Origin: Dysidea avara
Taxonomy: Eukaryota > Porifera > Demospongiae > Dictyoceratida > Dysideidae
DNA length: 64,000 bases
Direction: 5' to 3'
Assembly: GCF_963678975.1 (NCBI RefSeq)
Contig: NC_089274.1
Span: 31,745,053-31,809,052 of the forward strand
Shown: one piece after another, positions 16,201-56,575 of the stretch
How positions within the stretch are numbered: the stretch's first letter is position 1
Layout of the letters: each line of letters starts with the position of its first letter
Translations under genes and position numbers: made by a program
The notes under the pieces: generated by a model
What the model saw: only the letters and a program-made list of their open reading frames with translations
What the model was told of the DNA's origin: nothing
Databases searched by the model: none

Positions 16201-19200
16201 CTTGTACTGTACATCTGGTAAACAAGAATAACAAGCAGCTGCTTGTGTGTTTCGTCTCCAGAAAACATTTTTATCACGCATTCTAACCTTTATTGGCTCA
16301 TAACTCGCTAGTGACTTAGCGTGTTACGGCAGACAAACACCACAGGGCGTAGAAATCAATGTAGTCTACAGTGCTGCTTTAAAAACTCGGATATTTCCAT
16401 TAGATTCTATGTGACAATAGATTTTGGGTCCATGGTTGTTCGTTTCCCAATGGTTTCTGTACATTTTTATGGCTAACCGCAGCATCCAGTGGTTGCACAA
16501 CCACAATTAAAAGATCAATTAAAATACTTTCCCTTACATGAAACTGGCCTATACAAAAAAAAGTTTAGAGTGGGATCAAGAGCTCCCCTTGACACTCCAT
16601 CCCCTAAATTTGCTACTGTTTTCATTTGCCCCAATGTGATTGTCATAATTGGCCTGTGTGATTGTCATAATTTATGTGCTCTGTAGTAATAGATGAATTT
16701 CACAGTAAGGAATTATTACACATAATAATAGTTTCCCCTAGTAACCTGAATTTTACAGTATTTGTAGATGTCACTGTCTAACTGCTCCAAATTTTGAAAG
16801 GATAACATACAGGTCATGCAGTTTTATATGTGAGAGACAATTAACAGTTGCCCCGTCTGGGCAACCACATACCTCTGAGATACGATTTTTACAGTGTTGG
16901 TAGCTATATGTATAAGAAATTTTAAGTTTGATTAGGGATCATAGAAATAAAAAGTAGGGAAACAAGGGAGGTCGCCTACAGGGGTTGTTTTCGTAACACT
17001 GCTTACATAACTGTACTTTATTTGCCCAATGAGCCACATAACTGTGCTGTAGACTCATACAGTACAGTTATGCAGCTAAGTCATCTTGGTGATACAATAT
17101 AGAAAATACAGCACACGGCAGCACTTTGATTCTCCCACACAAAGTACAATAATTGACTGTTCTATTAGAGTGAACATTTGATACATTTGCAAATCATTGC
17201 AAAATCATTTTTAATCGCCTGAATATACTCGATCCCCCTGCTGTACCCACCCCTGAAATATCCTGTATGTTATGTTTTCATAATTACTTTAGTAAAAATC
17301 AGGCTGCTAGGGGCAACAATTACTGTATTATTATGCATAATAATGCCTTATGAAATTTGTCTATTTTTCAAATTTTTATTTGTTCACGTTGTTTAAACTT
17401 TGATGGCATTACATGATAAGTTAGGTACCAGGGTTATAGTAGTAATCAGTAAAGAGGTACAGGATGCTTGGTGGCTTTGAATTACATGTGGAATAAGTGT
17501 TGTTGACTTAACAGAGAAAATTCCTTTCTGATCTACTGTATTTCTTCATGTTTCACAATCATATATGCTCTTATTAAACAGCATGTATTACACTTAATAG
17601 TGTGTTGGGTGTGTACTGTGTACAATAAATAGTGCATTCAACTTTATTCTGCCTACAGGTGTTGTGTTTCATCATATTGATCTGTGCTGGGGTTACACTA
17701 GGAGCTGTATCTAGTGCTGAGGATAATGCTGATAGGCTTAATGATGGTCGTACTGATAGTGTTGATTTTGGTAAATACAGATCTGCTGCTGGGTGGATGC
17801 TGTTTGTGGCTATTATGGGAATGATCATCGAACCATCTCTAATACTTGTCCGTTTCCTCAATGTAGAGATCGTCAATAAAAATTTTTTGTTATTTGGATT
17901 TGTAGTAAGTAATTATTTTGTTACTTGTGTGTACATTTGCATGGGATACTCACAATATACTATAAAATGTACTAGCATGATACCAATATGTCATACATGT
18001 ATCATGATAGCTGTACATGGCACATCATTTTAATGCAAAAATAGCTGGCACAAAGATTGTCAACGGTAATGTGAGTACCTCTTCTATACTATATGTCTTA
18101 AAGTACATACCCACCCATGCGGCTAAATGCACATGTCTTTCAGGTGTATTTCTGTAAATGTGTGATCATACAGTACAATAGTACTGTATAGTAGGGACCA
18201 CAAAGGTGTGGGCATGGCCCATGAAAAAAAACATCAAAAACCAGCTTCACTTTTCCCTGACGACGATGAGGTAGGTAAAACTAAGCCCAAACAAGTCTTC
18301 AGATTGACCTGAAATATTTTTAACTATGGAATTTAAATATATATATTAATCCAACAACTGAATGTGTTACTGTATAATACTCTCAATAGCACCTTGACGT
18401 ATTATATTGAAATACGTCAAGCGATTAGCCAATGGAATTAGTATTACACTTTTTTGTCAAGGTCCCATGACAAAAATCTATATTACTAATTTGATTGGTT
18501 AAAATATTGTGGTGTGTTTATATTAGAAGTAAATGTCTGACTTGACATCTAGTGTTACCATAGTAATGGATGCCCCATGGCATAGCAACAATATGGCTGC
18601 TTAGTAATGGTTGCTAGGCAACAGTTGTTAAGTGTGATTGGTCTATTACAGTGGTTGTTTTTTGAATTTCTGTTGCCTAGCAACAGTTGCTATGGTTGTC
18701 GGATTAATTTGCAATAGGACGGATGGCTGTGGTATTCAGGAGACTCCTTCCTGTTTACAATGCTCGCACTATATTTGCAATAGGACGGATGGCTGTGGTA
18801 TTCAGGCGACTCCTTCCTGTTTACAATGCTCGCACTATTAATCCTGAATACCACAGCCATCCGTCCTATTGCAAATTAATCCGACAACCATAGCAACTGT
18901 TACTAGGTAACAGAAATTCAAAAAATAACCACTGCAAAAGACCAATCACACTTAGCAACCGTTGCTATGGTCTCAAAACGACTTTTACCTTAGCAACGGT
19001 TACCTAACAACTGTTGCTAAGCAACAATATTGTGTCATACCTTGGGGGCATCTATCACTATGGTAACAATAGTTGTTGAATCGGACATTTACTTTATAAA
19101 CACACCACACTATTTTAGCCAATCAAATTAGTATTATAGATTTTTGTCATGGGACCTTGACAAACAAGTGTAATACTAATTCTATTGGTTAATCGCTTGA

Positions 19201-22200
19201 CTTATTTCAATATAATACATCAAGCTGCTATTGAGAGTATTATACAGTAATTTTATACAGTAACACATTCAGTTGTTGGATTAGTACTAGTAATAGCATG
19301 GGTAGCAGTGAAATTTGGGATAAATATCACGAGTGTTGTATTGGAAATGGGGATAAATTTCACGAGGCGAAGCCTAGTGAAATTTACCATTTCCAATACA
19401 ACAAGAGTGGTATTTATCCCAAATTTCACTGCTACCCATGCTATTCCCAGTTAATACCATACTCGCTGCATATGCTGTGCATTAGCTTTGCTATGTACGC
19501 AATTTGTCACTATGTACTAAACACGCGTCGACACTAATTGGTGCTACATTGTTAACATAAATTCTAGCCAATGAAATTTGCAATTACAACTTTTTCACTG
19601 CTGTCAGTGAAATATGGGATAAATTTCACTGCTACTATTGAGACTTTTGTACGGGCAGTGAAACAGGTATGGTATTAATATATATATTTAACAGAATTTT
19701 CTAGTGACTAACTGACTGAGTGAACAACTAGTGCCTTCAGACAAGTGTAACGTGATAATAGCTAATGCTATGGGCTTGATTTTTGCACTGTTCAACGTCA
19801 CTTCAGTCCAAGAGGTGCCTTTTGGCATACCACAGTACGTACAATGCATTCTTCATGGACTTACCAGTGTCCTCCTTTGTGTCCCATTCATCTTTACTGG
19901 CAGTGAAAAGTGTCGATTTGGCAATAGCGCATGATGGCTTCCCTTCGTAACAGAAACCGTCCGTATTAGTGGCTACTTTGATTGCAAGGGTGCTTTTCAA
20001 ACAGTTCTTGATTCGTACTGCTGTATAACAGGTTGAACATAGCTGACAACGAAGCATAATGGATACTTCACTTTTCAGATGATAATTGATATACTGTAGC
20101 TGGGGCGCGCGGCACCATTTGATGCGGTATGTGTGGGTTGACCAGTCATAATAATTATTATTTACAAAAAAATTAACAAACTACACAAAAACATTGGAAT
20201 TTTCAAATAGAGTAGGGACCATAGCACATCAATAAAAAGTACTGGAGTATTGCACTCCTGTTTTCTTCAACATACTATATTTTCCGATTCAAGCTTACAT
20301 GGAACTCAATAAAATGTTATTCGTTTCATTGTTTTCAGCACTGCACAGAATTGTCAGTATGACTACATCCACTCACTACATCTTGTAGTATTATTTCATT
20401 TACATTTGCTGTCTTAATGTTTTGCAAAGAGATGATAAAACTCAGGTTCATTTTTTATACTAACATTTTCCATGTAGATGCTTATATAGATGCCACAAAA
20501 TTATTTAAAGAGGTGTGTTAAAGCTTACAGTGTACACTATATGTACAATTAAAAATTACTTGGAATGCAGTTAACACAACTTTAGCACCATGCCTTACAT
20601 CCTGTATAGCCTAAATATTTCGAGGGGAAAATATTTCGAGGTTGAGCAATGTTGCCAAAAATAAAAATTTCATGGATTTGTAAACACCCCCAAAATGTAT
20701 TAGACTATATGGAGGTCTAAATATTTCAAGGATAAAATTTTTGCTGGTGATCACCAAAACTGTGAAATCAGCAAAAATTTTCCCTCTCAAAATATTTAGG
20801 CTCTATACAGTACAGTACTGCATATTAGGGATCATGAAAGTTTGGGCTTTTTCTGGCCAAAAATATCACCCTACTAAAACCAGCCTCACATGGTGCCTTG
20901 CAGTATACTTAGGTATAACCAATTCCAAAAGTGCCTGCAGTACAAATGGATAAATGGAACAAAAAGAAGGACACAGGTAAGTCCATGGCTGAAGCGACAT
21001 CAAATAGTGAAAAAATCTAGCCTGTATATCTTCAGTATGCATCATGAGGTTAACTATTATCATTGTAAACTTTGTGGTATGTTTGAATAAATGCATTTTT
21101 TCAAAGGATGTAGGAATCAGTGTGGTGTTTGCACTGTCCCTGTTTGCTGGAGCAACAGCTAGCGCTGCATATGCTAGTGACGTTGCTGATGAGCATGATA
21201 CATTAGAGGACCGTCGCTTCTGTAATGGTGGAGATGTCAGAGAAGACTTCTGCAATGATGTGGAAACAGTCAGAGATTCTGAAGGTGCAACTGCGGTAAG
21301 GTTATACTGTAGTATAAATACTGTCTATAAAGCAAAGTTGTACACAAATATACCCACGATTGAATTAGGCTAACTAAATGCCTTCAGACAAGCATAATGA
21401 TGATGTATTTGACCCACTGAGCTGACTGGTTTATTTTTTTCTTGAACTTCTTTTGTGTCTATTGGGAAAACCAATGGGCTGTTAAAGTTTCATCCTTATC
21501 TGGTAAATACTATTGAAGTCATAACAATAAACATCAGGAAGAGCGAAACAATCGATTTGTACAGTGCCTATATACAAAAAATGAATTACAGGCACTTATT
21601 TAATTGATCACAAGTCACAAGTACAACAGGTGACTTATCTCATTGTGTTCACCATGAACTGGAAAATTCTTTTAAGTACAATTTTTTTTGGCCTAGTTCT
21701 GCCCTGGTCTTGTGATTCCAGGGACCGACCTTCGGTGAGACATCTGAGGAGCCATGTAGCTGATGACATCACGAGGCTCCTACTAGAGGTCTTGCCACTG
21801 AACAAAGAGAGCCCCTTGGAGCCCAGATTTATAGGGATTAGGCTGAGCTCTGCCAGCTTCCCAGTGTTTGATCAAGGAATCTTGGATGCCTTGCTGTGGT
21901 TGCTGCAGTCTATTTCATGGAGTCTGCTAGTGTTGTGAGAAACAGTTTGAGAGAAACAGTTTGAGAACAGTGTCATCCATGTTGATGATGTCCAGTCTGG
22001 CATTGGTATGACAAGTAGCTCTAGCAGAGGCTGGGGAATCACCTTCTGACATCCTGGTGCATCCAGAACCTGTGAGAAGAAACGAAGCAAGGTTATTGTG
22101 GGAAATGTCATCAGCCCAGCAGTTTGCAGTACCTGGCACATAAATGGCTTACAAGAAATACTAAAAATGTGTCCAGATGAAGAACATACATCGTAGAAGG

Positions 22201-40770: not shown

Positions 40771-43700
40771 CTAGCGGAGTATCATTTTCGCATTGTACCT
40801 CCACAAAGTCACAGATAGTTGCTGGAGAAGTTGGCGCCTAGCAAACTTTCTAGGTAAACCGTTTCTAACAGTTGTTCTGTCAGCTATGGATCCTAAAATT
40901 GATAGGGCATATGGTGACCAAACACCAAAGGTCTCACATACAAGAAGGATAAAATCTCCATTATCATTCACAATATCCTGGTATTGGTTATCCTTAGCTA
41001 TCTCACCAACAGCAGAGGCCACCCCAGCCTGAGAAGAAGCAGAAGATATGACAGCAGACTGAGTGGTACTCCTGACGGAGAGATCAAAATAGGCAGGACG
41101 ACTAAGATGAAGGTCAGGGTGGTATATGTCGCCAGGACGAGATTGGTCAGATGAAATTCCTTGCTCCCTAAGAACACCAGGGTGATCTTGGAGCAAGGCA
41201 CGGTGTATAACAGACGCTAAAGCATTATGATGCTGGATCCTCAAGGGACCATGAGAGCACCCCAGCAGATGATCACCAAACTAGTCAATGACAGATAGAC
41301 AAGTACAGAGTGGTAAAGAAGGGAGCAAAGGAATGCCAAGCCACAAACGTAAAGCTATAGTAAAATCGTGAGGAGGAATAGCTAAACCCAAAGCAGGCTG
41401 TGGAAGTGCTTTAAGCCAGCCACTGCTGGTGCCAGAAGAATGTGATATAGCACGCAGACGTGCTTTATCACGAATAGTGGAACTGCTTACAAGCTGTTTA
41501 AAAAGTGAATCATCTAAAATGGCTTGAAGGTCAGTTTGAGAGGAGTTATGCAACACAGAAACAGACATACCTTCGAAGAAAGCGAGGGAGCAATCCTCCC
41601 CGGGAAATGGCATCAAAACATCAAAAGTTTCCACTAAGCACGACACTAAAATACGGGCAGAATTACAGGACCCCACAAATGCAGGAGTAGCAGAACGCTC
41701 AGATTCACGTAGGCCCAAGCCTCCTAACCTAAATGGCAAGGTGGCTTGTGTCCAACTACTATCAGAAATTCCACAACACAAGATTCTACTAAGGCATTCT
41801 CGCAACCTAAGGTCAAAATGTGAGGGAAAGGAGCCCAAAGAGGAAGATGGCACACAACGTAAAAGGTGAGTGACCTTGCAAACGCTAAGACAGCTCTTAA
41901 GCAGATGCAACTCTACTTGAGGGTCCTCGAGGTCAACCAATTTATCCTGAATTGCAACTATTTTATCAAACTGAACAGACAAAAAGGCATCGTAAAACTG
42001 TGGAGGTCCCCAAATAGGAGATCCAAGAAGCTCCAAACCACTGTTCTTGGGGTTGATACGCTTGATGGCAGGATGAAAGTTAGGAAAAGAACTGTCACCA
42101 GAAGGCCAGTATAGTTCACACTTGGATAGGTTGATGTAAAGACCAAAACTGTGACCCGACTCAGTAAAATGTGAAAGTAATGCATGAAGACAAAGTCTAG
42201 TACCTATAAATGTGCCATCATCTAAATACCACAGGTTAAGAAGACATGTTTCACTATAAGAGATGGAACGAAGAAATTGCACCAACACCAAAGAAAAAAG
42301 TAAGGGACCAAGAGGATCTCCTTGTTGGACACCTGTGGAAGCAAGAATACGCCTGTGGCCAAACCTCAGCTCAGCAGGTTGACTGTAGCACCAATACACC
42401 CAGGGGGAAATCTCTGGAAACTCTTTACACACACCATCATTCCATCAAGAAAAGCTGAGCGATTACATTCATTAAATGCATTCTTCATGTCTATTTTGAG
42501 TAGAGCTAGAGAATCATCATTGCCTAATTGTGAAAGAGAATGACGGACAGCATGGATAGCTGCCTCAAGACCACCTGGGATACCAACACCCACTTGACCA
42601 TAAAGTAGGAAAAAGTCAGAGAGAAAGGGACAAGCAAACTGACAGCACAGACGACTGGCAAGGCGGCGAAGAATTTCACCAACTGCAATAGGGCGAACAC
42701 CCCCATTCTTTTTCAGAAGAACTGTTAAAGGGGCACCACACAACCAAGGGGCAAGCGATGGAGAAGCTTTTCCAGAAAGCAAAAAGTTCATCAGACAAGT
42801 GAGGGTGGTAAGGCAAAGTTCAGCAGAAGGTGCAGTGTGGCCACTGACTGCATCAAGAAGGTGTTGAGCCGTAAACCAGAGGCACCGGGACTGGTACCAC
42901 GAGGAAAGCCCTTCAAACATATTAATACAGCAGATTTAACTACAACTAAAGAAGCAGTTTTGGGGGGCCAAACAAGAAGGTGGATCAGAGACAGGATGTC
43001 GCTGAAATAACTCTTGAAATGCCAAATCATCATTCTTATCAGCCACACCGGTAGAAGTAAGAGACTGTACAGCATTACTGTACCTACCTTCCCGAGCCCA
43101 GAACAAAGCTCGAGAAATATTGTGTTTTGAAGACTGAATACAGTGACTGGAGCGAGAGACATGTAAATCATCTTGTAGAGCTTTCCAAAGATTATACAAA
43201 CCATCGGACTGAGACCAGAGATGAAGGCGGTCTAGCAAAACAGAAGCTAAAATAAAACGACGGCGGCGCTGACGAAGTGGAGGCATACGTAGTGCCAGTT
43301 TAGCAAAGAGAAAAAGACGCATAGCTAAAGCCCCAGATTGAAGAAATTGCATTTCGAAACTCGGTGGACAAGATTCTATCTAGCAAAGGATGAACACTGC
43401 GGGGAATGTGAACAACAGTTGAGACAGGACAGGTCATAACATAAGTCATCACTCCAGAAAGAGCCTCAGACTCAAGATGAGGAGGGCCAACAAAAGAACA
43501 AGCAGAAGCTGACAGAAGGGCTAACTCTAAAGGATCAGAAGGAATACTGGTGGAGAAAGCTAAGGAAGGTGGTGAAGGAGAAGTGGGAGACTGACTTTCA
43601 GACTGATCACAAATTAAGAAAGGAAGATCAGAAGCAGAAACTAATGGAGCATTACAGCGCTGACCAGCCCGGCTTAAGTAAACGTCTGCAGCCTGTTTTA

Positions 43701-43773
43701 CGAAAACGTTCATGAGTAGCCCAATTAACGCATAGATAATATATACCTTACCCGGGATTGGAAACAGAGGCAA
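40771..43773 (-). pseudogene. Non-LTR reverse transcriptase with R2-like zinc/endonuclease C-terminus (frameshifted)
   Basis: Minus-strand frames overlap in sequence 43773-43300, 43352-42936, 42920-42366, 42432-41281 and 41244-40771, implying several frameshifts. The RT domain shows LLKKNGGVRPIAVGEILRRL, KIDMKNAFNECNR (first catalytic Asp), GVQQGDPLGPLLFSL and YLDDGTFIG. The C-terminal part has CTC followed by GDHLLGCSHGPLR and HHNAL, a Cys/His knuckle like that before R2-type restriction-like endonucleases. Then RPGDIYHPD and YFDLSVR fit the PD...D catalytic pattern. One TAG (41281-41283) splits the knuckle region from the rest but the frame continues unchanged. No apurinic-type endonuclease is seen. 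A T-rich non-coding stretch follows at about 40,610-40,770. Confidence 0.8.
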
Positions 43774-44879
43774 TTAACACCAATCAACAGATTCACTCAT
43801 GCAGCATTGCAAAGAGCTAACTTATAGTATAACGTACCTCCGTTACATTACTCCGTGTTATTTAAGATGGAACGAAAAGAACCCGCGCCGCAAAAATGAA
43901 GGAACCAACGCGTGGGAATGACAGTGACGGTGTCACAGTGATATGTGTTTCCCCGCGTTTTGTGTTCCCCGCACACATATCACTAGGGATCCGTGTTTCC
44001 CCGCACACATATCACTAACTGGCTAGTAATCTACAAGTCACAGTGATATATGTTTCCCCGGGTATTATGTTCCCCGCACACATATCTCTAGGGATGCGTG
44101 TTTCCCTGACGTTCCTGGCAGTTTCGAAGTGCATGTACATATACTGTTTTTACTTTGCTGCTTCTACCACTGCTACTAGCCACTGCTGCCCCTTTTCCTG
44201 CTGCTATACTACTTTTCTACTAGCTGCGCCAGCTACTGTATGTAGGATCTGAGCTCCTTTTGCTGCTTTACTTAGACTACTGCTTGTTGCTGCTACTGCT
44301 ATAGTTATACTGCTCCTATACTTGCTGCTACCACTATAGCTATACTACTTGCCACTATACTACCAGCTACTATTCGCTGCTATACGAGCTGCTATACTTT
44401 GCTTGGTGCTACTATAGCTAACACTTGCTAGTACAACTATACTATAGCTACTTGCTACTACTTTTTGCTACTAGTACTGAAGTGAAGACAAATATGTATG
44501 AGAATGGATTAGATAACACACATACAATAATACAAATTAAGTTAGCTACTATACTGTGTAATGAATTCTGCAAATAGTTTGATGGAATTCTATAAACAGT
44601 ATAGAATTTGGCTTCAGCCACTTCCAAATAGCATGTGTGTCCATTTGTCATATTTCACCTGTGAAGAGAAAAAAAGAACAACATAGCTAAATCCAACGCT
44701 CACATTATGCTGGCATACCCAATCACAATAGTATATGGATGGCTTAAACTTTCATCTCCTGCATGCTCTGCACATAATATTTTCTTGTCCATGCAGATAT
44801 CTTGCAATAGATTAATATATACCTGTACAGTCAAGTGACTTTGGAAGTACATAACTGACTGGAAAATCTGTAAAGAAAA

Positions 44880-45650: not shown

Positions 45651-46965
45651 TTGGCCCATTTTCTGTTCATCTGTGTTATAAGTATGTCAAAGTCTACATG
45701 CATGTTTTAGCTCAAAGACTGCAGCCACACTAGTTGCTATCAGATCTTCATGCTGGACACTGTAAAGTAAAAGTAAAAAGTTAAATTACTTCATCAAGAA
45801 TGCAAAATGTACAATTTAAATTCGGTTTCAGCTATACACAAAATACCAGTAGTAGCAAGCAGTATAGCAACAGTAGCAACTGCAGTAACAGCTAGCATGT
45901 ATAGCTAGTGTAATACTAGCAATATTAGCATCTAGCAGTATAAGCAGTAGGTAGTTGCTATAAAAATAGCATGAGTGTATATAATAGATCTATAGCTACA
46001 GCTAGTAGCAGTAGAGGCAGTACTAAGCAGTGCATGACTGCAGTTTAGTAACAGTATAGTAGCAGTAGCATGCAGCTATAGTATAGTACTAACAGCAGTA
46101 GTTATACTTATAGTACTGTGACGCGTGCTCAGTATAGAGCAGCAGTAGCTAGCTAGTCGACTCGTAGTATATCAGCAGCAGAATTTAAACGCGGGTGTTG
46201 GGCGTGGTAGCTATAAAAACTGATAAACTGGAAGGGAAACATATATCACTAGCGCCTATGTCAGGGAAACACGCATCCCTAGAGATATGTGTGCGGGGAA
46301 CATAATACCCGGGGAAACATATATCACTGTGACTTGTAGATTACTAGCCAGTTAGTGATATGTGTGCGGGGAAACACGGATCCCTAGTGATATGTGTGCT
46401 GGGAACACAAAACGCGGGGAAACACATATCACTGTGACAACGGTCCGTTTTTAAATAAATGATAGGGATAAGTACTACAGTTAGGTAGCTTAATACTCGT
46501 TTGTAAACCATCATTAACCTTATCAGTCAGTCAGTAAGTCAAGTCATTAGGCCTGTCTAAGCCAACTTCCTGAAATTAGGTTAGGTAATCCTAAGGCTGC
46601 AGTACATGTTGCTGTCAGACCTTCAGTGCTGGTCACTGTAAAGTGCTAATAATAATAATTAAGTGTTTGTGTGATATCAGTGGTGATAGATGACTTCCGG
46701 AATGAAATACTGTCTCTGGTTTTTTCATTACAGGTGCCAAGGCAGAAAACACTTTTGAGGATGATGCTTTTATTATTAAGTCCATAGAGGCAATAGAAGC
46801 AAAAGGAAGTGACACAGAGCTCGAGCCTGTTTGCTAGACGGCTGGCATTTTGCTGCTGAAAACAGCTCCAGTTTCAGTTTTGATTTAAAATTGCCAAGCC
46901 AGTCCACATTGTGAGGGCAATGCTCTTTGTTATGCTGCTGGCTATGTTTGTAATCATCAGAACTG

Positions 46966-48690
46966 TTGACACAGTATGGTACCATCATCGCTGAGCAAGA
47001 ACGGAAGGGCTTCATTGAACAAGTGGCTGATGCTGATTGTAGCAACAGTGTACACTACATCCCACACCATCCGGTAAGGAAGGAGTCAGCCACTACCCCA
47101 ATAAGGATAGTGTATGACTGTAGCTGTAAGCAGTCCCGTGATTCCCCTAGTTTAAATGATTGTCTCCATGCAGGTCCCCCTTCCTTAACGATCTCAGCGC
47201 TATCCTTTTGCGGTTCCGACAACACCCCTTTGCCTTCTCAGCAGACATTGAGAAAGCATCTCTCCATGTATTCCTAGATGAGACTGACCAGGATTACACG
47301 AGATTTCTATGTTTGTCAGATCCCAACAATGCTAGTAGCTCCTTTGTTACTTACCGATTCAGAGTGGTGTTGTTCGGAGCCACCAGTTCCCCGTTTATGC
47401 TCAATGCCACCCTGAAATTCCATCTAACACAGAATGCTAATGCCACATCCAAGGACTTGCTCCACAACTTGTATGTGGACAACTTGGTGTCTGGATGCGA
47501 AAGTGAGGAAGCTGCCATTGAGTACTTCACTGAATCTCGATCAGCATTAAGCAGTGCTAGTTTCAATTTGCATTCATGGGCATCAAAACTGTTCACTTCT
47601 CCAGACTACTGCATTGCAACATAAGGTTGCTGAACACAACAACCCAGTGAAGGTGCTTGGTATACTCTGGAATGCTCAGAAAGATTTAATCCATCTATCG
47701 CCATGTACAGGCACTAGCAATTCACCTTCCCTCACCAAACGAGAAGTCTTACGATGGTCCTCGACTATCTTTGATCCACTTGGCTTGATAACACCAGTCA
47801 CGATTTCTGCCAAACTATTTCTTCAACAACTGTGACAGGAGCACATTGGCTGGGACATCAGATTGAATGACGATCTTTGTGCCAGATGGATGGAAATTGC
47901 AGATAACATCAGAGGTGCCACAACACTATCAATTCGCCGTCAGTATGCTGCATCACTATCAACAACTCAGAGCATGCCCACTTACCTTCATATGTTCGTG
48001 GATGCCAGTCTTAAGGCTTATGGAGCTGTAGCATACATTCAACAAGGCCAAAACCTACCCTCACTAGTTACGTCAAAATCAAGGGCAGCTCCACTGAAGC
48101 AACTAACCTTGCCAAGGCTTGAGTTGAAGGCTGCTGTGCTTGCAGCTAAACTGAGCTCCCTTGTCAAGGCAGCCTTGAACCTTGAATGTGCTGTGCAGCT
48201 TTGGTTGGATAGTCAGATTGTCCTACATTGGATATCCAGCCATAAGCCACTACAACCATTTGTAAATCACAGGGTTGAAGAGATCCGTGTAGTATCCACC
48301 AACTGGAAGTACTGCCCCTCAGCAGACAACCCAGCTGATCTCCTAACTAAAGGCATTACAGCTGAGCAACTCAAGTCTTCACATCTCTGGGTACATGGCC
48401 CAACATGGCTGCCTACACAGTCTGCCTGGCCAGCCTGGGACCCTACAGAGGTTCTGCTCACCTGCTTAGAACTAGGATGCATTGACCATGTGCACAGTGA
48501 CCAAACTAGGCCTCATAAGAATCTACCGGCTTCAGTGGCAAGAATCATTGACATCAACAACTTCAGCACTCTATCCAAGCTGCTAGCAGTCACTGCGTAC
48601 ACTCTAAGGTTCATTAACAATGTCATGCACACATCCCCCAACACAGCCATGCATTTGTCACCAGCAGAACTTATATACTTAATATCTTTT
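46966..48690 (+). pseudogene. BEL/Pao retrotransposon, reverse transcriptase and RNase H half (decayed)
   Basis: Segments in order read as BEL/Pao Pol: TIIAEQERKGFIEQV and YIPHHPVRKESATTPIRIVY before the RT palm, then ADIEKASLHVFLDE, FVTYRFRVVLFGATSSPFML, the catalytic LYVDNLVSG, the connection LGILWNAQKDLIHL and IFDPLGLITPV, RNase H with FVDASLKAYGAVAYI, LPRLELKAAVLAAKL and LWLDSQIVLHWI, and finally SADNPADLLTKG. Frame changes occur near 47,160-47,280 and 47,560-47,625, and a TGA interrupts at 47833-47835. It stops matching after HLSPAEL, just where the pre-integrase linker should begin. No gag or protease is seen upstream. The second Asp of the RT motif is Asn, a variant I believe occurs in this clade. 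Confidence 0.88.
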
Positions 48691-49559
48691 ATTATGAACT
48701 CTTAATGTTAAAAAGAAGTAGGGATTCAATCAATAAAAGGTGGTGAAATTAGAGATATGGATGATGTATATAGCTCAGTTGGAAAAGCCTTACCAAACAA
48801 AATATTTAACTGCTGACACGCAATTGTAGAGATTTTCTTACTTAGCTGTGTAGTAATACCATTGTTAATACATGTATTCTTATTTTACTACTTTTTATCA
48901 CTTGGATCTGTAATGCCTTCTTAAATTAATAATTTAAATGTACTAGTGATAGCCCAATTTTACATCATAAATTGTTTATAACTCAGTAATTGTTTATCAC
49001 ATGGGCGTAGGAACAGGGGGGGCCACAGGGGCCAGGGCCCCCCTAGTCTGTGGCCATGGATAGATATAACAGGCCAGGGCCCCTCCAGTTTGCAGCAGGA
49101 ATCATTTTTACAGTAATGCACCATGTGACACGTAATAATTATAGATCATTGGCCTACTTGGACGCTGTTAAGCTATGTTCCTTCCTCACCGAGTGAAATG
49201 TTGGTCCTAGTTTATTTGAAATAATATTAGAGGCGCTTAAAATGCTGTGATAATAAGCTACACCTCACGTGTGATTCGTGTTAGAAAATAATTAAAGATT
49301 ATCTGTGCAGCTGCAGAGAGTTAACTTATATCTCAGTCTCACTGTCAGAAAACTTTGTCAGAATTAATCCGTAGTCGTGGTAGACCTATTTCAATGAGTC
49401 CAGTTGTTAGTGAAGGAGCATCTAGCGAGGCTTCTAGCGGTTCCCAAGCGGTTCTAGCAGAGGTAGTATTGTTCTAGCCCTGGCTCTCTCCCTAATAACG
49501 AACCTGTGATCATAGATAATAGACACCCCATACTAGATTGGAAACTTCTAAGCGCCACC

Positions 49560-50710
49560 TAATCTATCCGCGCTTCGCGCCCCTTAGGCCACTCCAAGTC
49601 ATACCTTAGTTTCTGGTCACTCCCAAGCCTACAAATGGATGCGGGCGGGCGGATGATCAGGACTTCAGACTCTACTGTGACAATATACTGTATGGTATTA
49701 TTATTTGCTCAATTTAGCAAATTCATGTTGATTTTGTTTTTAGTCAAACTTAACCAACAACATTAGTAGTTGTGCTTCGGCAAAAAATGCACTAGGAAAG
49801 TTGTTGATGGATCATGGCTAGCTATACACTGATGTATAGCATTTAAGTATATTTATTTATTTATTTATTTAGAATATACTATAGGAAATGTTTTGCTCAT
49901 GTAGCTACTTATGCTTTCCAAGTGAAATAAATGTTTCATTAGCTATGTCAGGAAAATATTACTATGACTTATATAGCTAAGTTGTTCAAATGATCATGAT
50001 CCAAAATGAAATTTAACTTCTATTTTCACATCAGAAATTCTTCATTCAGATGTGAAGTCGTAGCCCACTAGCTATGTGTTTCCAGCCTTCTATTCAGTAA
50101 ACCTTGAGAAAAGTAACTGTCTAAGTTTTGAGTCATTGAGTGCTCCAGACTAATGTTTTTTAGTGATCATCTGGGAATGTTTAAACTATAAGGGTTTCTA
50201 CTTGCCAATCTAATTTTAGTTATGGAAAAGTTTAAGTTTAAGCTCACCAAATGTTGCCGGCTTTCCATACCCCTGCAGTGTTCAGTGATAAGGAATTTGA
50301 AGTTACTAGACTAATCATTAGAGGACTACATTTGAATTATAAAGTTAAAGCTATGGCCCATCTGCATGGGCTAGTAGTTAATGCTACTGAAATTACTTTG
50401 GTTACAGAAGCATTAGTAACAGTTATAATCTGAACAGCTATATAATCAAGGACAAAACTAGCTATAGTTAGAAACATTTTATTAGTGTAGCATATATACC
50501 TAATATTAGAGTTAAGAATAGTGTGACTGCTCTATTGGAATCCCTGACTGCTCTATTAGAATATCTCGATCTTTTACAGTAAAAAATAAGTGTCTTGCTG
50601 GGTCACATGCACTTAAGCACCTGTAATATTAATAATAGTCCTCATAAACTAGGGTTCCAGGTTTACCATGCGGGCGGGTGACCAGAAACTAAGGTTTGAC
50701 TTGGTGTGGC
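49560..50710. repeat. Inverted repeat pair about 1.1 kb apart
   Basis: GGCCACTCCAAGTCATACC and TTAGTTTCTGGTCACTC (49,588-49,625) return inverted at 50,668-50,710. The sequence between is AT-rich with the recurring motif at 50,521-50,575; no transposase is seen. Confidence 0.55.
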
Positions 50711-51866
50711 CTTATACTGTACACAGTACCGGGAGTATATTTTATAAGAACATGTTTTGCTTACTGGTGAGTAGTAAACCTATCGCTATGGAATATAAGG
50801 TTTGGCCTATTCATAGTGGGTGTACTGATGTGTATTAGCTAGAAGTTTGACAAGCGCGAAAGGTGATACTTGACTAAACTGGAGCAAATATACCATGAAA
50901 CACATACCAGTACACGTAACATTAGTTAGTAATAAGCATCAGCCTTAAACTAAACTTGTTCACCACGCCATTTTCACAAACATGTTCAAATACTTTTTAT
51001 ACGGAAAGCGCCTATACCAGTAGTAGACCAATCGCCACCCAAGAAACAATCTACTAAACTTACTAGTTAAAGCAACCGAGCTGTATCCAGACAGTAAAAC
51101 AGAATCTTCGAATGAAAAAGAGTGTTTGAAAACTTCAGGCGCGAAACGCGGATAGAACAGTAGTTTTGTATGGGCACTATACATGTGCTTCCAATCCAGG
51201 TAGGGGTGTCTATTATCTATGCTGTGATGGAGGAAGCTGAATCAGAGCAGTCCCACTTCCCCCCTGCACTTTCCAGACAACTACGGATCTGCGAAATGTA
51301 GCTAATAGCTACTCAGGGGGGAGATGTTAATTCATTAATTCATCCATATAAGTAATTTATACCTAGCTATCCTATCTATGTGTATTTCTGGGGGTAGATT
51401 TAACAACATGAAATTAGTTCAAGTAACAGCCCCTTAAAAGCCTTATTAATTGTGTTTTGTGATGTCATCATTCTATCACATCATTAACGTGGTATACAAG
51501 GTTGCTATAAGATTATTTATCTAGCATAACTGTCATTATGATTATTGGCTAAAATTGCCTCCAGATTCAACCTCATAGCTCCTATTTTTCAAAATTTTCC
51601 TGCAGGGGCATGCCCCCTAGAAGGAGAGCATGCAAAGTTCATGCTCTGTGCATGTGCCCACAAGTAGCTACACTCTCCTCCACCACTGTTTTAGTTACCA
51701 GTAGTGGCCCCCTTATAGTTTTTTTGCTTTGCTACGCCCCTGTATCAGGTATGCATCAAAATTGGTAAAGTTTCAAGGGATTCAAATAACCACCTTCCTT
51801 GGCCACAGATTTAGTTTATTGCTTGTTTCTCGCCACTAAAATACATGTTAGCAGGTAGTTATTTTA

Positions 51867-52079
51867 CAGTGGAACCTTAGTTATCCAAACCCATTGGTAC
51901 CAGGGGTGGTCCACAAGTCTGAAAAGTCCATATCTCTGAAACTGTGTTTAAAAAGCATAAAGAACATTTTTTTAAATTTCAGTATTATCAACTACCCTAA
52001 TAGAACAGTCACTACTCTAATAAAGCAGTCATTTCCGTAGTTTGGTTAATTGAGAATCCGGATAACTGAGGTTCCACTG
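51867..52079. mobile_element. pogo/Tigger-like MITE with TA duplication
   Basis: Inverted ends CAGTGGAACCTTAGTTATCC and GGATAACTGAGGTTCCACTG are flanked by TA on each side. Length 213 bp. It contains two minus-strand copies of the recurring GACTG(C/T)TCTATTAG motif. It lies about 430 bp upstream of WDR25. Confidence 0.82.
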
Positions 52080-52503
52080 TAATTATTTGAAGATGTGTTA
52101 TATAATTGGCTCTTTAAAAACACAAAATAGTGCACTTGGTTAGTCTTGCATGGTAGGACTGTACTATTACTTTTATGTATGAATGGGGGAATACATACTG
52201 GTGAAATCAATCTAGTCACATGGTCTGTCAGGATACCTATATGAGTCATACTATATATAGGTAAATTATTCATCTGATCTCTATAGCCTCTATATATGCA
52301 AAAGGAATGCATTCGCAATAATTCTTGGTCTGAAATAGTACACTTAAGTTCCCATAGCCAGACTGGCCATAGCAAGCACCTTAAGTAACCACTGTAATGA
52401 TGTAACGTATCTCAAAACATTGTGTTGCATGCATGGTAATAATGATTATGCAAAGCAGATTATTTTGTATGCTTGTTAGGTTGTTTATCTGCTGTAAATC
52501 ACA

Positions 52504-53676
52504 ATGAACAACATCATATCTGCCTATCAGTCAGACACTGATGATGAAGAAGGTATATCATCAAGCACTAAAGCAACGCCTTCACATCAGTCGAAGCAAG
52601 GTGCTATTTCTGGGTATGTATCTAAACGAAAGAGAAAACATTTAGCTGACAATCATGAATGTACCAGTGAAGTGAAAGCAGCTAAGTTTGATGCATTATC
52701 ATTTTATTGTTGTGATGAATCTAACGTTGAATCATATTCAGATACATACCAGGTGCCAAAGAAGAAGTTGATTAGTTTTAAGGAACATACAACAGCTGTA
52801 ACCTCTCTTGATTGGCACTTACATGACCACAGGCTTTTGTTGTCTTCTTCAATGGATCATAGTGTGCGTGTGTGGGACCCTTACATGCAGGAGTGCTGTG
52901 TAGCCAACTACAAACCTTTGAATGCAGCATTGCAAGTTTCAAAGTGGGTCAATGGTCATACTGTAGTATGTGGTGGGTACAGTAACCATGCAGTACACGT
53001 TGACATGAACACACTGCAAAACATTTCAACAATAAAACAAGATTCATTTGTTACTGCACTAAAGGTACATCCAACAGACAGAAATAATGTAATTATTGGT
53101 ACTTACAAGAGTCAGGTTCATTCCTGGGATCTAAGAAGTGATAGAGCTGTGAATACTTACAAAGGAGCTGATGGTCAGATACTAGACTTGGAGTTTTTAG
53201 TAAACAATTCGGAAATGGTTGCCAGTGCTGATGTTGTTAAAAAGAATTCTAGTAGTGAGACAGTCGTAGTATGGGACTATAGGTCTGCTGTGGTTAGATC
53301 AAACCAGGTTTATCAAGAACCATATACTTGTCCTAGCTTGTGCGCACACCCTTACGAGCATGTGTTTGTAGCACAAAGTAATGCTAATTATGTGGTTATA
53401 TTTTCTGCAAGGAGGCCATATAAATTGAACAAGTTCAAGAGATATGAAGGTCATAAAGTGATGGGATATCGCATATCAATGGACATTAGTCCATGTGGTG
53501 GTTTATTATGTAGTGGTGATGCCAATGGACAGTTGTACTGCTATGATTATAAGAGTTCCAAGATATTGACTAAACTGCAAGCATACAATGGTAGTGCATG
53601 TATTGACTGTAAATTTAATCATGGACTATCCTCTATTGCTACTTGTAGTTGGGATGGTCAAGTGACTGTATGGTAG
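52504..53676 (+). CDS. WDR25: WDR25-like WD40 repeat protein, single exon
   Basis: A 390-aa intact reading frame. The N-terminus is acidic (AYQSDTDDEEG, residues 7-17) and followed by a basic stretch KRKRK (41-45) that could be a nuclear signal. WD40 repeats run from about residue 95 (HTTAVTSLDW, SSSMDHSVRVWDP) to the end (ATCSWDGQVTVW). The segment RYEGHKVMGY followed by SPCGGLLCSGDANGQ is characteristic of WDR25, a relative of the splicing factor CDC40/PRP17. The family is uncharacterised; a nuclear scaffold role is inference. No intron interrupts it. The start follows a possible acceptor-like TTGTTAG, so a 5' untranslated exon cannot be excluded. It sits between the two halves of one BEL/Pao retrotransposon. 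Confidence 0.85.
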   Translation: MNNIISAYQSDTDDEEGISSSTKATPSHQSKQGAISGYVSKRKRKHLADNHECTSEVKAAKFDALSFYCCDESNVESYSDTYQVPKKKLISFKEHTTAVTSLDWHLHDHRLLLSSSMDHSVRVWDPYMQECCVANYKPLNAALQVSKWVNGHTVVCGGYSNHAVHVDMNTLQNISTIKQDSFVTALKVHPTDRNNVIIGTYKSQVHSWDLRSDRAVNTYKGADGQILDLEFLVNNSEMVASADVVKKNSSSETVVVWDYRSAVVRSNQVYQEPYTCPSLCAHPYEHVFVAQSNANYVVIFSARRPYKLNKFKRYEGHKVMGYRISMDISPCGGLLCSGDANGQLYCYDYKSSKILTKLQAYNGSACIDCKFNHGLSSIATCSWDGQVTVW

Positions 53677-53733
53677 AATATGTGAATGTATACCATATAT
53701 TATGTGTGTTATAGGCATGATAGCACGCATGTA

Positions 53734-53739
53734 AATAAA
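53734..53739 (+). promoter_or_regulatory. WDR25: WDR25 polyadenylation signal (AATAAA)
   Basis: A canonical AATAAA 58 bp downstream of the WDR25 stop, followed by a T/GT-rich stretch. No genomic poly(A) tract follows it. Confidence 0.65.
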
Positions 53740-54400
53740 CTGTTGTTTTATATGCTAGTTGTATTTATATATTTGTTGGTGATATTGTAGCTGCAAATAT
53801 TTGTTGTTGTAGCTAGTGTTGTCACATGACTATGTCATTCAATGAAGTAAACGTCAGTGTGTTTCAAATAACAAAGGGTTTGTGTGGAGATATTCTTTAC
53901 ACCTTTGTTCCATAGTGTTACAGTATAGTGCATGTGTCAAAAGATTAGATTCTGCTGTCTACATAGTTCATGTAGTTCATGATATTGATATTGCACATGA
54001 AAAACAACTATGTAAAGCCATACACAATTACAAGTTTCCAAGCTGGCCTGTGATTACAACTGACTATCAAGTATTTCAATGCATTTTCATGTACACCTAG
54101 CTGGTGCAACTACTACGGCAAATTGGTAAATTATGTAAAATGTGGTGGAGTGACACTAACTGCCTCAATATAACATTGTGTTATTGTAACTTCAGAGTAT
54201 CCTCAACATCAATTAGTACTGAATATAGGTGACTCATTTTTCAGTCTGTTTCTGATTAATTGCTTATGATCAAACAACTTTTATGCCCTTCAGTACAGAC
54301 TTGCATGCTTCCGTAGTGTGTGTGTGTGCATGTTCTGTGTGTCTGTCTGACATAATTATAAGTGTGTGTATGCTCTAGTGTATGCATGCACAGTGCACGT

Positions 54401-54437
<37 letters not shown>

Positions 54438-54689
54438 CTTCATTCAGGAGTATGCAACAGTGAGATGAGTCAAACCAACAACCTGCTATATGGACAGAAA
54501 TTTTTGAGAGACAAACATTTGTAAATTTAACAAGTGATGACAGCTAGATAGTGACAGTGTCACAAAAATACAATCTTAATCACCACTGGTTGTTTTTGGA
54601 ATTTCATGAAAATAATTTATACGTATGGATCTGCTTTCGTATACTATACATGAACATTGTCTCAAGGCATGCAGGGGAGGGGGTATCAT
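53740..54689. other. Region between WDR25 and BEL integrase half
   Basis: A small CA tract (54,401-54,433) is the only clear feature. A 72-codon frame at 53,882-54,100 has no family resemblance. Confidence 0.5.
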
Positions 54690-56104
54690 TTTTCACAGTA
54701 ATAACCAGTGTGAAGTGGATCTATGCTGTTCAACACGAACATTTCTCAGAAGAAATCCAGAACTTACAGTCACAGTCCTTGCGACTTTCACTGGTGCGAC
54801 AGCTGAGACTGTTCTTAGACAAGGACATGTTAATTAGGTGTGGTGGGCGAATACACAATGCCCCGTTGTCTGAACAAGCAAGATTCCCGTACCTTCTGCC
54901 ATCGAAGCACCACTTCACTAACCTAGTGATACTGCAGGCACACACACAACTACATCACAGTGGCGTCAATGCAACCTTAACATTGATACGCCAACGCTAC
55001 TGGATACCCTCAGGCAGGCAACGTGTACAATCACTGCTTCACAAGTGTGTCATCTGCAAGAGAGCTGCAGGTAAACCTTATGCTACTCCAGATCCCCCAC
55101 CACTTGTCAAGGACCGGGTGAATGCCTCACGCCCCTTTGAGGTTACTGGTGTGGATTTTACAGGTGCTCTGTATGTCCGCAACAACACTGGAGAGCAGAA
55201 GGTTTATATTTGCCTTTTCACCTGTGCAGTATCCAGAGCAATACATCTTGAAATTGTGTGTGATTTAACCTTGCAGTATTTTTTACAGGCATTCCGCAGA
55301 TTTGTCAGCCGGAGATCACTACCTCGATTGATGCTCTCAGATAATGCGTCCACGTACCAAGCCATGGCGGAGGAGCTGCAGAAGCTACTCACATCTGCAG
55401 CAATAGCAGAAGATCTAGTCAGAAGAGGAATTAAGTGGCACTTCATCCCAAAGAGAGCTCCGTGGTTTGGAGGATTTTGGGAACGGCTTATAGGACTCAC
55501 TAAGTCAACGTTGAAGAAGGTACTGGGTCGAACTCATGCCACCTTAGAGAGCCTCCAGACCATGGTAGTTGAAGTGGAAGCCATTCTTAACAGCTGTCCC
55601 CTTACATATGTATCATCTGATACTGATGACATTGAACCAATTACACCCTCTCATCTGTTACATGGCAGACCAATTGTTTCTCTGCCACACTATGTTGTCC
55701 AGGATGATGAACTGAATGACCCAGCTTATGGTGAGACTACAGACATAAGAGGATGTGCGAAAACCCAGGCCTTACTACTGTCATACTTTTGGAGCAGGTG
55801 GAAGATGGAATACTTGACAGCCTTGCGCAAGTTTCATCGAACAACAGGGTCTAATACACAGACAGTGAAGGTGGGAGACATAGTTCTTATTCATGGTGAT
55901 ACCCCCAGAGTGTAGTGGAAGCTGGGTATAATAGAATATGTAAATAAAGGAGTTGACGGACTCATTCGTTCAGCCACTGTGAGAACACCTACCGGGAGAA
56001 CGAATCGGCCAATAGCCAAGTTGTATCCCTTGGAAGTTACAGCAGCAGAGCTACCCACTTCACGTCATATCACTGAAGAGAAATCCACAACCTCAGCAGT
56101 GTAG
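54690..56104 (+). pseudogene. BEL/Pao retrotransposon, integrase half (one nonsense codon)
   Basis: The frame runs from the linker (VKWIYAVQHEHFSEEI) through the HHCC zinc domain (HTQLHHSGVNATL, KCVICKR) and the integrase core with its D, D and E positions (TGVDFTGALYV, LMLSDNASTYQ, WFGGFWERLIGLTK). It ends in the C-terminal DNA-binding region (VKVGDIVLIHGDTPRV, then after a TAG at 55913-55915 WKLGIIEYVNKGVDGLI and GRTNRPIAKLYPLEV) and the stop near 56,102. Homology starts almost exactly where the half at 46,966-48,690 ends, so the two are probably one element. No LTR could be defined downstream. Confidence 0.9.
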
Positions 56105-56334
56105 AACACCTCGCCAGGCCGCCTTACAGGGACGTCAGAAGGTGCAACAATGGACTCACTCCTTACTTACCCCTCCCCCCCCCCCCCCAAGGATGTCAAG
56201 TATTGATTGACAGACAATTATGCTATTGTAATTTAATATTATTTAGCTGTATGACATATGCGCATGCGTGCTTCTAATACTTTAAGACAGATGAAACTGC
56301 AACTACACGTGGCACTGAAACTGTAGTCGCTGTA

Positions 56335-56575
56335 ATCCACCACTATACTTCACAATTTGCCGGGAAAGCTAGTGGCTACAAGAAACAGCCACTAGCTCAA
56401 GAACAATAAATGACTGGAACATACTACCAACTGATACAATTGAAATTGCAGATACTGATCTATTTACGACTAGACTCCGATCATATTATTGTACCTAATG
56501 TATTTGTGTTTATGTGATTCCTGAGCACACCAGTAGGGCTGACTGCTCAGTAAACAATAATAATAACAGACACTT
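56335..56575 (+). pseudogene. Non-LTR retrotransposon, C-terminal fragment with AAT-type 3' tail
   Basis: One frame reads SSRTINDWNILPTDTIEIAD then FTTRLRSYYCT and stop, the usual end of a non-LTR Pol protein. It is followed by a short 3' UTR and a simple AATAATAAT-type tail near 56,555, which marks a likely element end. It begins about 230 bp after the BEL integrase remnant. Confidence 0.6.

Follow-up and report, generated by a model that had tools for sequence, protein, structure and literature searches.

How has an intact, intronless WDR25 gene come to lie between two parts of a BEL/Pao retrotransposon? A sequence-only reading of the window (the whole 64,000-nt stretch of the Dysidea avara contig NC_089274.1 analyzed here) had placed a reverse transcriptase/RNase H half and an integrase half on the same strand with WDR25 between them, and had proposed either a large insertion into one element or two independent, abutting insertions. 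Pfam domains and the open reading frame bear out this arrangement, which consists of the following parts (window positions).

46952..48672, plus strand: left part of the BEL/Pao element, from reverse transcriptase to RNase H and linker (Pfam RVT_1, Peptidase_A17)
48673..48681, plus strand: left-junction filler of 9 nt (comparison with BEL copies and with the 29.94-Mb segment)
48682..54707, plus strand: duplicated segment, twin of C3:29941232-29945629 (blastn; last base ambiguous with BEL)
49511..51221, no strand assigned: inverted-repeat transposon of 1,711 bp (repeat search; ends inverted over about 33 bp; 7-bp target-site duplication CTGTGAT)
51867..52079, no strand assigned: small MITE-like inverted-repeat element, TA-flanked (repeat search and end sequences)
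52504..53676, plus strand: WDR25, intact intronless ORF of 390 codons (ORF list, Pfam, solved-structure match)
54707..56354, plus strand: right part of the BEL/Pao element, with integrase, C-terminal domain and 3' end (Pfam Integrase_H2C2, rve, DUF5641)

The left part carries RVT_1 (E = 1.3e-8) and Peptidase_A17 (4.5e-26) domains in Pfam, and the reverse transcriptase, the Pao-type Peptidase_A17 and the integrase domains follow each other on one strand in the order expected of a BEL/Pao element. Both reading frames are broken, the left by shifts near 47.18 and 47.6 kb and a stop at 47833-47835, the right by a stop at 55913-55915 and a frame change near 56.1 kb. Comparison with the copy at C6 showed that the element is also 5'-truncated, at 46952, a point absent from the sequence-only reading. 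The copy lacks long terminal repeats at both ends with a target-site duplication, since the cut at 46952 leaves at most a putative 3' LTR. The family has at least 40 matches in the genome besides the window and a common 3' terminus: seven copies (L014-L020) end in TTCACA and then run into unrelated flanks, and the point where the flanks of the copies diverge defines 56354. The window copy is thus a fragment of a BEL/Pao family. It has the same domain set as the BEL/Pao retrotransposons described in PMC3118150, but is 5'-truncated, interrupted and frame-broken. Pattern matches to the two halves (1 viral-contig stretch and 25 genome-contig stretches) encoded no relative; none was confirmed for either half in viral or genome contigs, nor for the integrase half in phages and plasmids.

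The two halves are parts of a single element, as had been proposed. Among the 19 other BEL loci examined, 18 run without interruption across the junction point, and the remaining one (L026) is itself incomplete there. The halves do not overlap and only 9 bp are missing between them; both have a G+C content of 0.466, against 0.371 in the insert to the left of WDR25 and 0.356 to its right. Both are nearest to the same copies, six of which have identities of 96.4-97.3% to the left half and 97.5-98.5% to the right half. The left half has not decayed significantly more than the right: measured against their nearest copies, in counts rounded from distances, the halves show 39/1,488 and 12/794 differences (p = 0.10).

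The DNA between the halves has a twin on the same chromosome and in the same orientation, 1,852,502 bp away. In blastn the segment matched C3:29941232-29945629 in three blocks (96.9-98.7%), with homology ending at both BEL junctions, and apart from a later transposon and some small gaps the match runs from end to end. This supports the suggestion that a duplication carrying a gene was inserted into a single BEL copy. The twins differ by 50 substitutions in 4,295 aligned bases (1.16%) and by 14 gaps, and their flanks are different. The copied piece comprises more than 3 kb of non-coding WDR25 flanks, including a microsatellite and the MITE-like element, whose presence in both twins indicates that it predates the duplication. 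At 29.94 Mb a small palindrome lies across the left end of the segment, which fits an undisturbed source. No hairpin of that kind is seen at the right end there, an observation that counts against such a source. Rfam searches at gathering thresholds gave no match in the window.

It is very improbable that the two loci were mis-assembled, or that the segment changed place uncopied and one of its two sites is a duplicate made by the assembly. The structure is known here from the assembly, but there is no N in the window or in 40 kb surrounding the 29.94-Mb locus, and the substitutions, gaps and different flanks that separate the copies show that one locus was not assembled twice.

Where the nearest BEL copies read GAACTT-TCACTAGCT-AGTGTGAAG, the window has GAACTT, ending at 48672, and then 9 nt of filler; the foreign DNA begins at 48682 and AGTGTGAAG at 54707. 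The left boundary follows from the 18 uninterrupted loci and the right from comparison with BEL copies and the match to the insert end, so that the junctions, previously placed at about 48,680 and 54,690, shift to 48672 and 54707. The BEL target lost 9 bp, and at most one base is ambiguous at the right junction; the inserted DNA therefore spans 48673 to 54706 or 54707. The filler differs from the 9 bp that the nearest BEL copies have here and has no exact match in the 29.94-Mb segment. The bases encoding ITS before VKWIY had been considered as BEL sequence, with ATA as a 3-bp repeat; this was wrong, as they are part of the copied segment.

About 6 kb now separate the halves, as first estimated, but the original insert was about 4.3 kb, the 1.7-kb transposon at 49511-51221 being a later addition. 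CTGTGAT flanks this transposon on both sides, and the 29.94-Mb locus, where the site is empty, has it a single time; the transposon thus entered the window copy after the duplication.

Could the whole segment instead have been carried into the element as cargo by a DNA transposon? It has sharp ends at a different location, as such cargo would. However, terminal inverted or direct repeats at the junctions scored no higher than in 200 shuffled sequences, so that the short direct repeat expected at both junctions was not borne out, and there was no target-site duplication. Moreover, 9 bp of target were lost, and the only transposon with a target-site duplication is internal and later. Full-length matches to the final 608 bp of the insert occur at two genomic places only, the window and 29.94 Mb, and BEL sequence adjoins only the window copy; this argues against a mobile element. 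The terminal repeats, target-site duplication and composite present at several places that mark gene-cargo transposons (Pack-TIR, LTR capture) are likewise missing, and we regard this origin as highly unlikely.

The ORF resembles WDR25 more closely than the paralogue CDC40/Prp17 (226.9 versus 115.4 bits). Among solved structures it matched WD repeat-containing protein 25 best (4.5e-66) and Prp17 less well (3.4e-32); residues 78-390 aligned through the last blade without a stop, while residues 1-77 lay outside the alignment. A second WDR25 with introns had been anticipated elsewhere. The second copy exists, at 29.94 Mb, but it is intronless too. In the assembly it carries a 2-bp frameshifting insertion near C3:29.944 Mb, whereas the window copy is intact. 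An intact gene in the proposed copy and a frameshifted one in the proposed source are the reverse of the usual expectation, which counts against the explanation favoured below. Between the two genes there are 2 synonymous and 3 non-synonymous differences, too few alone for a test of selection. A third WDR25 copy may be the true source, and there may be a third copy that bears introns. A literature search for WDR25 together with intronless genes found nothing.

An intronless gene oriented in the sense of the element might suggest that WDR25 mRNA was reverse-transcribed into it, as a retrocopy or by template switching of the BEL reverse transcriptase, giving a gene-cargo element. This has scarcely any probability for the present insertion. 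The matching locus is likewise intronless, which argues against a processed retrocopy in the window; the flanking DNA common to the two loci, MITE-like element and microsatellite included, extends the copy far beyond an mRNA; no poly(A) was seen at the insert in the window sequence, and the right 608 bp have no further full-length copies. How WDR25 earlier came to be intronless is a different matter. Equally implausible is that two elements of one BEL family inserted independently and that their broken ends abut in protein order by chance, since the family, rich as it is in copies and with incomplete ones such as L026, would have to supply two breaks no more than 9 bp apart in the element that also coincide with both ends of a segment duplicated elsewhere.

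Taken together, these features are best explained by a break in the BEL element and its repair with a copy of DNA from far away on the same chromosome, a reading to which we give a probability of roughly 0.9. A double-strand break would have occurred in an already inserted copy, in the linker between RNase H and integrase. During repair, 9 bp of the element would have been lost and the gap filled with about 4.3 kb of host DNA, probably copied rather than cut and pasted from 29.94 Mb, 1.85 Mb away, leaving the 9-nt filler on the left and an ambiguity of at most 1 bp on the right as scars. This piece would have brought a complete, already intronless WDR25 with its flanks, and the 1.7-kb inverted-repeat transposon inserted into it afterwards. 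The frameshift at 29.94 Mb, if real, probably arose after the copying. That BEL insertion preceded duplication is suggested by the divergence of the window element from its six close copies (2.6-4.1% left, 1.5-2.4% right), compared with 1.16% between the twins.

In dispersed intrachromosomal segmental duplications, a stretch of a few kb is copied together with its flanks. The present case is similar in this respect, with twins about 98% alike, but its ends are nearly base-exact, since the DNA landed in a repeat whose sister copies are uninterrupted. Closer still are the repair-mediated duplications inside transposable elements described in PMC2671141 (PLoS Genet 2009), in which donors lie less than 5 kb away and the mean length is 162 bp, with deletions of 1-15 nt, fillers of 1-68 nt and microhomology of 2-9 nt; in their close-range class, poly(A) was reported in 0/39 and a target-site duplication in 6/39. 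As in those cases, host DNA was duplicated into an existing element that has uninterrupted sister copies, a duplicate is identifiable elsewhere in the genome, and a small deletion and filler occur without poly(A). The window case differs in its distance, its length of about 4.3 kb and its inclusion of a whole gene. Two of its features count against the repair reading: a distance far beyond the 5-kb limit of that set, and an overlap of 0-1 bp, below its microhomology range. Given the distance, the event works like such a duplication but is not filed in the set of PMC2671141. Single-copy Pack-TIRs described in PMC8277862 formed by gap filling, and 59.8% of 281 were captured from the same chromosome. 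They share with the window a capture at the time of repair by an already inserted element, for which transposition is not needed, but the acceptor here is of the LTR type and not a TIR element.

The type of event is thus already known; its twist is that WDR25 is intact inside the retrotransposon and frameshifted in the twin outside. The locus is a near base-exact record of a whole gene copied into a retrotransposon, apparently by repair and not by transposition, and twin locus, target, scars and later insertion are all legible in one genome. It also cautions that an intronless gene within an element is not necessarily a retrocopy. WDR25 has been proposed as a minor-spliceosome protein in PMC9887622. 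It is possible, though we advance it tentatively, that the working WDR25 of this genome has moved into the retrotransposon and is kept at the site of break repair while its match outside is frameshifted. If so, a proposed minor-spliceosome gene would now be maintained at a repair-made site within a mobile element, and, if the intact copy is the sole working WDR25, a conserved gene can relocate via a repetitive element.

The WDR25-bearing segment inside the BEL/Pao retrotransposon fragment is real and well resolved, and it represents an event of a known kind. The window, C3:31745053-31809052, contains no N bases, and the genome searched comprises 550.8 Mb in 108 contigs. The parts concerned are as follows.

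46952-48672: left BEL half, with RVT_1 and a Pao-type Peptidase_A17 (domain search)
48682-54707: inserted host segment
49511-51221: 1,711-bp element with inverted ends, within the segment
52504-53676 (+): WDR25 ORF, 390 codons
54707-56354: right BEL half, same strand as the left, with Integrase_H2C2, rve and DUF5641 (domain search)

A family search took the initial 601 bp of the integrase half as its query and scored 40 of 118 candidates, so its count, at least 41 matches in the genome including the window, is a lower bound. Besides the window, 19 loci among the matches listed (L014-L032) were checked for contiguity, and in 18 of them the RNase H side is directly joined to the integrase side, as the sequence-only reading had supposed for an intact BEL element. 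In the exception, L026, the left side is absent, as is the beginning of the right side. Against the six nearest copies among the loci examined, identity is 96.4-97.3% for the left half in the window and 97.5-98.5% for the right. This contiguity and these identities indicate that both halves, each with a G+C of 0.466, come from a single family and join at a single point. Thus, the proposal of a single element on one strand held, and the opposing prospect of two different BEL families was not borne out. The element ends at 56354, beyond which the flanks of the copies are unrelated. Its 5' side is abruptly truncated at 46952, where a sister copy runs on upstream in an open frame; a search of the window for the missing part, with the neighbouring 562 bp from one copy as query, did not find it.

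In the seven loci compared in detail (L014-L020), the junction reads GAACTT-TCACTAGCT-AGTGTGAAG. In the window, BEL sequence up to 48672 is followed by 9 nt of filler and then by segment DNA from 48682, while on the right segment DNA and BEL share the single base 54707. Overlap or a large loss at the junctions had been named as evidence against a single element; the halves do not overlap, and the window lacks TCACTAGCT, the 9 bp that the nearest copies have there. The short direct repeat sought at both junctions did not appear, no direct or inverted repeat there standing above shuffled sequence.

The inserted DNA (G+C 0.371 left and 0.356 right of WDR25) matches C3:29941232-29945629, on the same chromosome and strand 1,852,502 bp away. 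The homology falls into three blocks with identities of 96.9, 98.0 and 98.7% and stops at both BEL junctions. With the 1,711-bp element excluded, 50 of the 4,295 bases aligned between the copies are substituted (1.16%), and there are 14 gaps. The insert's last 608 bp has full-length matches at two places, the window and 29.94 Mb, although the search passes over simple repeats and very common words and this is not proof of rarity. Of the query's other 17 matches, two are weak and short, and the remaining 15 fall in its BEL end, none of them starting before base 608. A high-copy repeat at 49000-49200 in the segment recurs at 87-99% in at least 38 further places besides these two copies.

The 1,711-bp element is bordered on both sides by CTGTGAT, a 7-bp target-site duplication. 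At C3:29.942 Mb a single CTGTGAT without the element forms a clean empty site, which indicates that the element entered the window copy after the duplication. Its ends resemble the stretch 43730-43766 (77-78%).

The inserted segment includes flanks and lacks poly(A), terminal repeats and a target-site duplication, and it is accompanied by small target loss and filler. These features match the trace of a break in the BEL element that would have been repaired by copying distant DNA; that a break occurred, and which way the copying went, is what we infer. Such repair duplications have been described in vertebrates (PMC2671141), and gap filling inside DNA transposons drew on the same chromosome in 59.8% (PMC8277862). 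The BEL element must have been in place before the segment arrived. Its differences from six close copies (2.6-4.1% left, 1.5-2.4% right), set against the 1.16% between the duplicates, agree with this order. A palindrome with 16-bp arms (C3:29941215-29941253; L010:6215-6253) spans the left boundary at 29.94 Mb, with the segment's end in its loop; nothing comparable was found at the right end. This single case would fit an undisturbed source and possibly a fragile site.

Other features were observed nearby. Just upstream of the BEL fragment, 183-bp inverted repeats (43928-44110 and 46260-46442, 99% complementary) enclose about 2.1 kb. Frame-broken ORFs occupy 40771-43773 (minus strand), and one of four scanned (41284-42441) carries RVT_1 (E 7e-8). 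The 29.94 Mb locus is flanked by a diverged inverted pair about 20 kb apart (L009:3962-4820 and L011:3704-4540; 73-86% in two pieces). Further away, about 0.94 kb at 18344-19286 shows a 75.5% match to its reverse complement, and an ORF at 17629-18030 has a weak MARVEL-domain match (E 1.1e-4, short of the curated cut-off).

The intact, intronless WDR25 reported between the BEL halves was confirmed. Its product scores 4.5e-66 against WD repeat-containing protein 25 and 3.4e-32 against the paralogue Prp17; the alignment runs from residue 78 to residue 390, taking in the last blade, and meets no stop, and the first 77 residues lie outside it. A second copy, to be sought elsewhere with introns, does exist at 29.94 Mb but is likewise intronless, and in the assembly sequence a 2-bp insertion shifts its frame near codon 236. 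Substitutions are rarer in the coding sequence (5/1,170) than outside it (45/3,125; Fisher p = 0.004), a hint that at least one of the copies has been under constraint. What is unusual is that a whole gene was carried over 1.85 Mb and that the intact gene is the copy inside the element. Which copy works is of some interest because WDR25 has a suggested role in the minor spliceosome, put forward from its distribution (PMC9887622).
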